From positions 806,001-870,000 of the forward strand of contig NZ_JAJAPX010000001.1 of NCBI RefSeq assembly GCF_020523965.1: 64,000 bases of DNA, given 5' to 3'. How positions within the stretch are numbered: the first letter of the stretch is position 1; every line of letters begins with the position of its first letter. Origin of the DNA: Neotamlana sargassicola. GTDB lineage: Bacteria; Bacteroidota; Bacteroidia; Flavobacteriales; Flavobacteriaceae. A program made the translations under genes and the position numbers. Of this stretch, positions 28,533 to 55,950 are shown in pieces. The notes beneath the pieces are model-generated. The model was not told the origin of the DNA and did no database searches. It saw nothing but the letters and a program-made list of their open reading frames with translations.

Positions 28533-28552
28533 ATTCCCGCTTTCGCGGGAAT
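28533..28552. repeat. Solo REP-like hairpin
   Basis: ATTCCCGC-TTTC-GCGGGAAT: a perfect 8-bp stem with a TTTC tetraloop, in the tail-to-tail gap between the GT9 and PaaE-like genes. Its reverse complement has a GAAA tetraloop, the form seen at the left edge of the GIY-YIG element at 45349. It could also act as a bidirectional terminator stem, though T-runs are short. Confidence 0.7.
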
Positions 28553-44910: not shown

Positions 44911-45345
44911 ATGAAAATAAAAATAGTAAACAAATCCAATCACGAGTTGCCTCATTACGAAACTTTGGCATCGGCAGGAATGGATTTACGTGCAAATTTA
45001 TCCGAATCACGTATTTTAAAACCGTTAGAGCGCACCATTGTTGGTACAGGACTTTTCATAGAACTTCCGGTTGGTTTCGAAGCTCAGGTACGCCCTAGAA
45101 GCGGTTTGGCTGCTAAAAAAGGAGTAACAGTACTTAACGCTCCAGGAACTATAGATGCCGATTATAGAGGTGAAATAGGCGTTATTTTGGTAAATTTATC
45201 AAACGACGATTTCGAAATTAACAACGGCGAGCGCATTGCGCAATTAGTAATTGCAAAACACGAGCGTGCCGAATGGGATATAGTTGAAGAACTATCTGAA
45301 ACAGCTAGAGGAGAAGGTGGTTTTGGAAGTACTGGGGTTAAGTAA
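44911..45345 (+). CDS. dut: dUTP diphosphatase
   Basis: 144 aa trimeric dUTPase. The five motifs are visible: AGMDLRA (22-28), [10 protein letters not shown] (62-71), [13 protein letters not shown] (76-88), [11 protein letters not shown] and the C-terminal arm [10 protein letters not shown]. It hydrolyses dUTP to dUMP. Follows the flippase gene by 1 nt; a REP-like hairpin starts 4 nt after its stop. Confidence 0.97.
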
Positions 45346-45348
45346 CCA

Positions 45349-45368
45349 ATTCCTGCGAAAGCAGGAAT
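45349..45368. repeat. REP-like hairpin, left edge of GIY-YIG element
   Basis: ATTCCTGC-GAAA-GCAGGAAT, a perfect 8-bp stem and GAAA tetraloop, followed by CTC. Inverted relative to the hairpin at 45713-45732 (TTTC loop). Confidence 0.85.
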
Positions 45369-45408
45369 CTCAAAATAAAGCCATCATGAACTTTGGTATG
45401 TCTACATC

Positions 45409-45699
45409 ATGGCAAACAAGCCCAATGGTGTCTTGTACATTGGTGTAACTGATAATTTGGATGAAAGAGTAAAAGAGCATAAGTTAAAAGTTTACCCAAA
45501 GTCATTTACGGCAAAATATAATTGTGATAAACTGATTTATTTTGAAGAATTTAGTGAAGGAAAAATTGCAGAGAGAAGGGAAAGGCAGTTCAAAAAATGG
45601 AAACGTGATTGGAAAATTGAATTAATTGAAGAAATGAATCCAAGTTGGTCAGATTTAAGTGCTAACTGGAACTTGAATTACAATAAAATTAGGAAATAA
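45409..45699 (+). CDS. Small GIY-YIG nuclease; N-terminal start uncertain
   Basis: 96 aa from the first ATG. The open frame extends back to 45379 and encodes HHELWYVYI just before it, so the true GIY motif (here VYI) lies upstream of the ATG without any usual start codon. LYIGVTDNLDERVKEHK follows (YIG and the catalytic Arg), then KLIYFEEFSEGKIAERRERQFKKWKRDWKIELIE with the Glu metal ligand, and NPSWSDL. Small stand-alone GIY-YIG proteins of this type are common in Bacteroidota. Hairpins bound the gene on both sides. It may use a rare start, be truncated, or be decaying. Confidence 0.8.
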   Translation: MANKPNGVLYIGVTDNLDERVKEHKLKVYPKSFTAKYNCDKLIYFEEFSEGKIAERRERQFKKWKRDWKIELIEEMNPSWSDLSANWNLNYNKIRK

Positions 45700-45712
45700 A
45701 TTAAAACAAAAG

Positions 45713-45732
45713 ATACCCGCTTTCGCGGGCAT
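45713..45732. repeat. REP-like hairpin, right edge of GIY-YIG element
   Basis: ATACCCGC-TTTC-GCGGGCAT, 8-bp stem with one mismatch (A/C) and a TTTC loop. It is inverted relative to the hairpin at 45349. It ends 5 nt before the ATG of the nucleotidyltransferase gene, so it lies where a ribosome binding site would be. Confidence 0.85.
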
Positions 45733-45737
45733 GAGAT

Positions 45738-46757
45738 ATGAAAATAATAGTCCCAATGGCAGGTCGAGGCTCTCGATTACGCCCTCATAGTTTAACCGTA
45801 CCAAAACCGCTAATTCCAGTAGCGGGAAAACCTATTGTGCATCGTTTGGTAAGCGATATTGCTAAAGTGTTAAAACAACCCATTGAAGAAGTTGCCTTTG
45901 TTCTTGGCGACCCAGCATGGTTTGGCGATGATGTTGTGCAAAGTTTAACCGAGTTAGCTACTAGTTTAGGTGCCAAAGCATCCATTTACCGTCAAGACAA
46001 ACCGCTTGGAACTGGCCATGCTATTATGTGTGCTAAACCGTCTCTTTCAGGTCCTGCAGTTATTGCTTACGCAGATACTTTAATTCGTGCAGCTTTTGAT
46101 TTAGACCCCGAAGCCGATAGCGTAATCTGGACTAAAGAGGTTGAAAACCCAGAAGCATACGGCGTTGTTAAGCTTAATAAAAACGAAGAAATTGTAGAAT
46201 TGGTTGAAAAACCAAAGGAGTTTGTAAGCAATCAAGCAGTAATTGGCATTTATTATTTTAAGGATGTTGCTATTTTAAAAGATAAATTGCAAGAAGTTCT
46301 TGATGAGAACGTTATGAATGGAGGTGAGTACCAAATTAACGATGGTATTAAGCGCATGATGGCAGAAGGTAAAATATTTAAAACCGGAACCGTAGATGAA
46401 TGGATGGATTGTGGTAATAAAGCCATAACCGTTGAAACCAACGGGAAAATGTTAGGATTTTTACATGCAGATGCCCAAGAAACTTTGGTTGACACCTCGG
46501 TAACGCTTGAAAATTCTAAAATTATAGAACCTTGTTTTATTGGTAAAAACGTAGTGTTAAAAAATGCAACAGTTGGTCCTAATGTATCGATTGGCGATGG
46601 TTCTGTTATCGAAAATTCAACTATAAAAAACAGTTTAATACAAACTGAAACCAGTATAAAAAACGCCAATTTAGATAATGCTATGATTGGTAATCATGTA
46701 AAATATAATGGTAACTTTACAAGTATTAGTATTGGCGATTATTCGGTGCTTGAATAA
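45738..46757 (+). CDS. Sugar phosphate nucleotidyltransferase
   Basis: 339 aa. N-terminal GT-A-like fold with the pyrophosphorylase signature IVPMAGRGSRLRPHSLTVPKPLIPVAGKP, then YADTLI, GEYQINDGIK and WMDCGN. The last 100 residues are a left-handed beta-helix (FIGKNVVLKNATVGPNVSIGDGSVIENS). It activates a sugar-1-phosphate with NTP, probably glucose-1-phosphate or a relative. Its ATG is 5 nt downstream of the REP-like hairpin. The next gene starts 69 bp later. Confidence 0.9.
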   Translation: MKIIVPMAGRGSRLRPHSLTVPKPLIPVAGKPIVHRLVSDIAKVLKQPIEEVAFVLGDPAWFGDDVVQSLTELATSLGAKASIYRQDKPLGTGHAIMCAKPSLSGPAVIAYADTLIRAAFDLDPEADSVIWTKEVENPEAYGVVKLNKNEEIVELVEKPKEFVSNQAVIGIYYFKDVAILKDKLQEVLDENVMNGGEYQINDGIKRMMAEGKIFKTGTVDEWMDCGNKAITVETNGKMLGFLHADAQETLVDTSVTLENSKIIEPCFIGKNVVLKNATVGPNVSIGDGSVIENSTIKNSLIQTETSIKNANLDNAMIGNHVKYNGNFTSISIGDYSVLE

Positions 46758-55932: not shown

Positions 55933-55950
55933 TTCCTGCGAAAGCAGAAA
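55933..55950. repeat. REP-like hairpin in trpS leader
   Basis: TTCCTGC-GAAA-GCAGAAA: a 7-bp stem with one C/A mismatch and the same GAAA loop as the GIY-YIG element's left edge. A degraded solo copy between the trpS ATG and its promoter. Confidence 0.65.

Follow-up and report, generated by a model that had tools for sequence, protein, structure and literature searches.

Small single-domain GIY-YIG nucleases of about 90–105 amino acids appear to be the dedicated partners of GTC-tagged (CGTC-class) palindromic repeats and thus a GIY-YIG counterpart of the REP–RAYT pairing, a reading to which we assign a probability of about 0.7 and for which no cutting, nicking or movement has been shown. The association between hairpin and nuclease gene is strong and directly observed: the majority of the nuclease genes that we looked at, in several phyla, adjoin hairpins, typically two that are inverted and carry their tags outwards. 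Cutting and mobilisation of the hairpins by the nuclease are inferred. The same explanation, taken as a whole, makes the copy in the window (the 64,000-nucleotide stretch of DNA analysed here) an old and decaying example, with four exact hairpin cores left in its genome, worn tags and a start codon out of frame.

The locus in the window and its enzyme

The 3.61-Mb draft genome that contains the window (G000) probably belongs to the Flavobacteriaceae, to judge by its named relatives. In the window, three forward-strand reading frames follow each other: the host gene dut (44911–45345; PF00692, 1.8e-32), an open frame of 105 amino acids for a GIY-YIG nuclease (45382–45699; PF01541, 3.8e-17) and the host gene for an NTP-transferase (NTP_transferase, 45738–46757; PF00483, 1.1e-24). 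Starting three nucleotides behind dut, the left REP-like hairpin (45349–45368, forward strand) reads ATTCCTGC-GAAA-GCAGGAAT, then CT, and forms a perfect 8-bp stem around a GAAA loop, with a DNA fold of −8.1 kcal/mol (z −6.3). The right REP-like hairpin (45713–45732), recognised by sequence, inverted-repeat search and folding, is inverted: it reads ATGCCCGC-GAAA-GCGGGTAT on the reverse strand, presents a TTTC loop on the forward strand, contains one unpaired stem position and ends five nucleotides before the NTP-transferase start. Both have stems of 8 bp and loops of 4, and the repeat search reports them as a 22-nt inverted pair with 82% complementarity. The outer tag position holds CCA rather than GTC on the left and CTC on the right; the tails are CTC and CTT, and neither hairpin is followed by a T-run. 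The initial annotation, made from sequence without database searches, had proposed a GIY-YIG gene between dut and a nucleotidyltransferase, bounded by inverted hairpins, the left one perfect with a GAAA loop. The Pfam match, the inverted pair and the 8-bp stem confirm this, and its description of the right edge as the same structure inverted holds for orientation and loop but not for full pairing of the stem.

Allowing up to one mismatch, the hairpin core CCYGCGAAAGCRGG occurs four times in the window against 0.01 expected, a count reached in none of 100 shuffles. Exact cores also number four in the whole genome, two of them at the dut-locus nuclease gene, and the reversed-pattern control gave none. 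Two solo hairpins of the same class had been proposed elsewhere in the window: that at 28533–28552 (reverse strand) is perfect (DNA fold z −4.6) and has GTT, one base off GTC, at its tag position, whereas that at 55933–55950 (forward strand) is degenerate (DNA fold z −0.8). A second copy of the whole design (L004) lies in the same genome between trpB and trpA, its neighbours matching PALP, which we take to be TrpB, and Trp_syntA in Pfam; the stems of its hairpins differ from those at the dut locus, but the GAAA loop and ATCT inner edge are identical. Another GIY-YIG gene of this genome (L002/L274, G000:C37:22789-23031) stands among GTC-tagged repeats with the core TGAGCGCAGTCGA, and this core or a near variant is present in repeats on both sides of the gene at five more loci (L260, L261, L263, L266 and L267).

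The window frame is a member of the GIY-YIG nuclease superfamily (PF01541). It retains Y8, Y19, G21, R29, H33, E67 and N86, which are invariant in 37 aligned sequences and presumably include the catalytic residues; the alignments (A1 and A2) omit L098, L213 and L234, each with a stop inside the stretch used. An AF2 model reached a pLDDT of 92.9, and the closest folds found by Foldseek were UPF0213 (E 0.006) and Slx1 (E 0.035 and weaker), none under 0.001. The small GIY-YIG proteins of UPF0213 (PDB 1zg2 and 1ywl) have a similar single-domain fold and size, but the solved ones are labelled hypothetical and our literature search found no repeat association for them. Slx1-type GIY-YIG nucleases cut branched DNA. 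In fold and substrate Slx1 is a possible model for the cutting of hairpins or cruciforms, but its chains are longer (249–298 residues) and were solved with Slx4. For seven of the proteins NCBIfam returned no family above its cut-off (for six of them the best match, below cut-off, was a group I intron endonuclease model) and PADLOC assigned no defence system to the three submitted, so we do not read the nuclease as part of a known defence system.

No in-frame ATG precedes the catalytic core in the window frame. The ATG used by the sister species (G150) corresponds to position 45386, where it is one base out of frame, and between start codon and core the window sequence is one base shorter than that of G150 (45386–45409). 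On this ground, which is one of sequence alone, the window copy may have been disabled at its start and is likely inactive, unless the assembly is wrong there, at an A run.

Hairpins beside nuclease genes and across genomes

Relatives of the nuclease (E ≤ 1e-10) were found in 74 of 149 family genomes, sampled one per genus, in up to seven copies each, some of them broken. We examined 110 family loci, of which 79 were fetched stretches and 29 came from the search, the remaining two being L004 and that of the window; the weakest-scoring rows were left out. These loci gave 117 gene or fragment entries, three of which (L020, the same place as L076) were counted twice. A strict detector (perfect stem of at least 7 bp, loop 3–5) placed a hairpin upstream of 62/117 entries, downstream of 60/117 and on both sides of 46/117, against 69/1627 control windows from the same loci; without the doubled entries the counts become 59/114, 57/114 and 43/114. 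For a cross-phylum set drawn from named genomes, the best 80 of at least 566 confirmed relatives in many phyla, they were 55/80 upstream, 66/80 downstream and 50/80 on both sides, against 53/1343 control windows.

The orientation of these hairpins was assessed by a search that demanded the tag and tolerated one mismatch, in 114 family genes (L020 dropped) and the 80 cross-phylum genes. Upstream hairpins pointed outwards at 39/114 and 48/80 genes, respectively, and inwards at 4/114 and 8/80; downstream the counts were 36/114 and 57/80 outwards and 12/114 and 9/80 inwards, over a background of 24/1356 windows in the family and 6/1192 in the cross-phylum sample. Detectors fixed in advance were then applied to 28 extra loci from the same phylum that do not overlap the earlier ones (L285, the window's own, and L292, truncated at a contig end, were excluded): 25 had an outward repeat, 16 of them on both sides, while inward repeats were found upstream of 7 and downstream of 14, and 4/280 background windows were positive. 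Among 15 of the 31 matches in a plasmid collection, 11 had an outward tagged repeat (one of them, L242, weak) and 8 had it on both sides, against 8/210 background windows. Three records in that collection that are labelled as plasmids (NZ_CP119140.1, NZ_CP119142.1 and NZ_AP026896.1) measure 2.2 to 4.9 Mb and look like mislabelled chromosomes. On Planktothrix agardhii p1 (L239), where the nuclease gene has GTC-tagged repeats of the longer-loop kind, its two neighbours are annotated as an MmeI-type enzyme gene and as drmA of a DISARM system.

The two ends of one element resemble each other. In the 81 genes of a 194-gene set with a two-sided hairpin, loop length was equal at both ends in 78 cases, against a mean of 41 and a maximum of 56 in shuffles, and identity between the ends was 0.84, against 0.48 when shuffled. 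On a FastTree phylogeny of the nuclease, hairpin class changed 20 times, against 56.9 in shuffles (minimum 48), although some labels (L131, L150, L151 and L207, for example) are likely to be chance palindromes. The 194-gene set, on which the end-match, tree, wide-detector and tag counts rest, holds three places twice (L039=L210, L042=L204 and L080=L201) and includes two fragment matches in L038 besides its gene. A detector that does not require a tag recovered 215 hairpins at nuclease genes, with an outward GTC in 150/215, a stem starting AT in 166/215 (the first base had to be A or G) and tails of CCA in 58, CTC in 44 and CTT in 19; since it required stems of 8 or 9 and loops of 4 or 5, it is no test of those traits.

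Two clades that seemed bare were considered as a negative control and rejected, a wider detector having found longer-loop GTC-tagged repeats in 17/22 and 14/15 of their members. The statement that 0/14 divergent GIY-YIG genes have repeats had to be given up in part: 6/14 have another GTC-tagged class on both sides and 8/14 do not. Neither detector found a repeat at 25/194 nuclease genes. One locus (L112, G024:C2:2394276-2395190) differs from the usual inverted layout in having eight class-2 repeats, all in one direction, arrayed around a single nuclease gene.

The initial annotation had also called for a search of the genome and its relatives for hairpins around GIY-YIG genes and had named the lack of a statistical link between the two as refuting. 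A strong link was found, both at the loci described above and at the level of whole genomes, the genome counts being uncorrected for phylogeny. Within the family, the nuclease was present in 41/46 genomes with at least two copies of two exact hairpin patterns and in 33/103 others (OR 17, P 3e-11); when a single class-1 copy sufficed, the link was weaker (33/48 versus 41/101; OR 3.2, P 0.002). Presence of Y1_Tnp (PF01797, the RAYT superfamily) had no link with hairpins in the 149 family genomes (OR 1.3, P 0.47) and was weakly linked to presence of the nuclease (OR 2.3, P 0.02); when only the family genomes with Y1_Tnp were considered, the hairpin–nuclease link had a P of 0.056. Outside the family (266 genomes, being a phylum sample of 296 minus 30 of the window's family, with a nuclease search that accepts any class) the nuclease was found in 46/51 genomes with class-1 hairpins and 59/215 others (P 7e-17), and in 25/26 genomes with at least five class-1 copies versus 80/240. 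The reversed-pattern control had zero matches in the phylum sample.

Nuclease-bearing genomes hold 910/943 class-1 copies, 314 of these in a single genome (G306); without it the count is 596/629. The link also extends to solo hairpins: 34 family genomes have class-2 hairpins with no nuclease gene within 1 kb, and 32 of them encode the nuclease (32/34 versus 42/115). Class-2 sites within 150 nt of a nuclease gene make up 27/136, where 0.3 would be expected even with every site restricted to one tenth of the genome. At the level of genomes, cognate specificity, judged in nuclease-bearing genomes only and with clade lists drawn from fetched loci only, is moderate: solo class-2 hairpins were associated with the matching clade (OR 4.8, P 0.003) more than with the mismatched one (OR 2.6, P 0.10). 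A higher value for class-1 hairpins and the tetra clade (OR 10.6, P 2e-4) is not relied on, as the counts include hairpins at the genes themselves. A matching nuclease for class-1 hairpins was not found in G096 (23 hairpins) or G131 (16), and in G306, with its 314 class-1 hairpins, the single nuclease found with E ≤ 1e-18 is flanked by a repeat of another class. In the 258 kb of G306 examined (L309–L328), nuclease-free doublets were seen, 5/5 close pairs being outward with a spacing of 23 or 24 nt.

Occupied, empty and fixed sites

Presence of gene and hairpins at one place in all relatives, with no empty sites, would have told against the mobile or domesticated pair that was initially proposed, and this is not what we found. 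The NTP-transferase is present in 105 family genomes and four of the genus; upstream of it, in the 33 best-scoring loci, a nuclease gene was found in 7, one of them broken. Two of the four genus genomes lack the gene at the site between dut and the NTP-transferase (G149 and G151), and G150 has it. On the tree of the NTP-transferase gene, the 7/33 carriers require 6 changes, at least 3 of them forced by well-supported branches, a number no smaller than in shuffles (203/500 as low).

The right flank was aligned for 20 of the 33 loci, picked by eye. At the place of the right window hairpin, a palindrome with different, mostly complementary stems is present in gene-less genomes such as G151, G148, G061 and G044; elsewhere the palindrome is degenerate (G149) or is replaced by a different one (G084 and G019). 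Because some gene-less relatives have this counterpart, the right hairpin is not necessarily the end of an inserted unit, as had been assumed, and the gene with its left hairpin look, from these comparisons, like the variable part of the site. A similar picture would result from repeated loss of an ancient element with a hairpin remaining at the site. G029 has three hairpins at the site, and in L050, L052 and L066, from other genera, a different palindrome of CTCCCCTTTGGGGAG type lies at the right-hairpin place upstream of the NTP-transferase start. An apparent opposite orientation of the gene at the dut site was rejected as an artefact of comparing loci without turning them to the gene.

Empty sites were also found in another phylum, where Azospirillum lipoferum 4B has a block of hairpin doublet, nuclease gene and hairpin doublet between sufB and sufC that is absent from four relatives (A. 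ramasamyi, A. oryzae, A. sp. B510 and A. thermophilum). Shinella WSC3-e and HZN7 carry the gene at a site where S. sumterensis and H4-D48 have no copy. The initial expectation of an empty site with a target duplication is thus met in its first half, at dut and at sufB–sufC; no target-site duplication could be made out at either of these sites or at the Shinella one, since alignments of the flanking intergenic sequence are poor. Other copies are fixed: a neighbour is common to 21/21 pairs among the seven members between trpB and trpA, and to 10/10 pairs among the five members of the penta-GCA clade, of which the one scanned stands beside genes for a MaoC-type protein and an enoyl-CoA hydratase. 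These copies keep the same site across genera and so are inherited stably or are specific to their site, not freely mobile.

The patchy occupation of the dut site, with its 6 changes for 7/33 carriers and at least 3 well supported, fits an alternative that we consider unlikely without discounting it: a homing-type invader that lands in pre-existing GTC-tagged hairpins and copies only its own gene, the hairpins spreading by other means. The right hairpin shared with some gene-less relatives and the group I intron endonuclease model that is the best, sub-threshold NCBIfam match in 6/7 proteins point the same way. GIY-YIG homing endonucleases also share the catalytic domain and a small, mobile-looking gene, but the genes described here are intergenic, have no intron or intein and are flanked by hairpins of their own class. 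Against an invader of this kind, class-1 hairpins lie mostly where the nuclease is (910/943 copies, or 596/629 without G306) and the two ends of one element match; both fit hairpins that belong to the element.

The fixed copies, together with the presence of Slx1, a branched-DNA nuclease, among the nearest solved folds, could instead suggest a caretaker or regulator: an enzyme of the host that processes these hairpins or trims cruciforms, in order to keep the genome stable or to regulate genes, and that has been passed on with them, neither being mobile today. We regard this as improbable in view of the patchy presence of the nuclease (74/149 genera), the empty sites, the several divergent copies per genome and the broken copies. 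Less credible still is passive hitch-hiking, in which repeat-rich intergenic regions tolerate any small insert and GIY-YIG genes gather there with no functional link: repeats do cluster around some genes, as in G024 and the Neisseria arrays, but the preferred inverted orientation, the matched ends, the lineage-specific repeat class and the lack of a genome-level link between hairpins and Y1_Tnp all oppose it. Although the hairpins fold well and sit at gene ends, they can scarcely be ordinary transcription terminators or mRNA stabilisers of a small gene, as they also occur upstream, are inverted, have an unpaired GTC tag in 150/215 cases and, in the window, are not followed by a T-run.

Relation to known repeats and a possible mechanism

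A dedicated nuclease partner would bring these elements close to a described class of repeats. CGTC REPs are described as having the tag CGTC (often TGTC or CCTC), stems of 8–9 bp that nearly always start with AT, loops of 4–5 and tails that are mostly CCA; they occur as inverted dimers, are reported in five phyla, among them Bacteroidetes, Proteobacteria and Spirochaetes, and include Neisseria dRS3 and Rickettsia RPE-6 and RPE-4 (Di Nocera, De Gregorio & Rocco, 2013; PMC3733652). The hairpins at nuclease genes match this description in tag, stem and loop (GTC in 150/215, AT in 166/215). The tag criterion is met at the level of the family but not by the window's left hairpin, with its CCA, the right hairpin having CTC and the solo hairpin at 28533 GTT; CCA tails are found in 58/215, and the window has CTC and CTT. 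The same source also states that CGTC REPs "apparently lack a dedicated transposase", with an association of "-" in Table 1 (PMC3733652); here, in contrast, a GIY-YIG nuclease between outward-tagged hairpins is proposed as the partner. Azospirillum lipoferum and S. meliloti are named there as CGTC hosts (PMC3733652), and in both we found a nuclease gene with CGTC-type hairpins on both sides. In a Neisseria gonorrhoeae record, 16 dRS3 copies are arrayed over 4.3 kb around the nuclease gene, and the tags closest to it point inwards.

The likeness to REP/RAYT systems (REPtron, TnpA-REP) lies in the inverted hairpins that enclose a nuclease gene, in the solo hairpins and doublets elsewhere in the genome, in repeat-specific partners and in the fixed position of some copies. 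RAYT is described in the same source as an HUH Y1 transposase paired with GTAG-tagged REPs (PMC3733652), whereas the enzyme here is GIY-YIG (PF01541) rather than HUH Y1 and the commonest tag is GTC rather than GTAG; PF01797 had no match in the window's own genome. The system works like a REPtron and is not a member of that group. The association, orientation and matched ends support the original suggestion of a REP/RAYT-like layout with GIY-YIG in the place of RAYT, but the pair is not the unusual one it was taken for, being one case of a widespread family. Compared with an insertion sequence or MITE, inverted ends are present and no duplication was recognisable at the three sites with poorly aligning flanks. 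Among the matches listed in our literature search (titles, abstract openings and term counts), none connects REPs to nucleases of the GIY-YIG type; as coverage of subscription journals and bioRxiv was poor, the pairing may have been described before.

A mechanism can be proposed. The nuclease would recognise the hairpin, as a cruciform or as a single-stranded hairpin at the replication fork, by its tag, stem and loop, which we infer because hairpin class and nuclease clade co-vary. It might then nick or cut the base of the hairpin as Slx1-type GIY-YIG nucleases do on branched DNA, an inference drawn from the fold. Host repair or replication could next copy the excised hairpin pair, a REPIN-like doublet, into other intergenic sites; spread by this route after cutting is a guess by analogy with REPINs. 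Now and then the whole unit of hairpin, gene and hairpin would be copied, the target often lying beside an existing hairpin.

These results suggest that, in small GIY-YIG nucleases, a large class of hairpin repeats scattered through bacterial genomes has its missing partners. CGTC REPs, for which no dedicated transposase is reported (PMC3733652), now have a candidate partner of ~100 residues that is testable with synthetic hairpins. A broader proposal, which we would call an even bet, is that bacterial palindromic repeats with a GTC tag, including CGTC REPs, Neisseria dRS3 and the GTCATTGCGAG, GTCATTCTGA and GTCA-TGAGCGCAGTCGA types with longer loops, are for the most part non-autonomous members of one superfamily of miniature mobile palindromes, driven in many phyla by small GIY-YIG nucleases that co-evolve with their hairpins, as a second, independent solution to the REP–RAYT problem. 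If this is true, an enzyme could be assigned to a group of widespread intergenic repeats, including Neisseria dRS3, and the same partnership with palindromes would have arisen independently in two unrelated nuclease folds, HUH and GIY-YIG.
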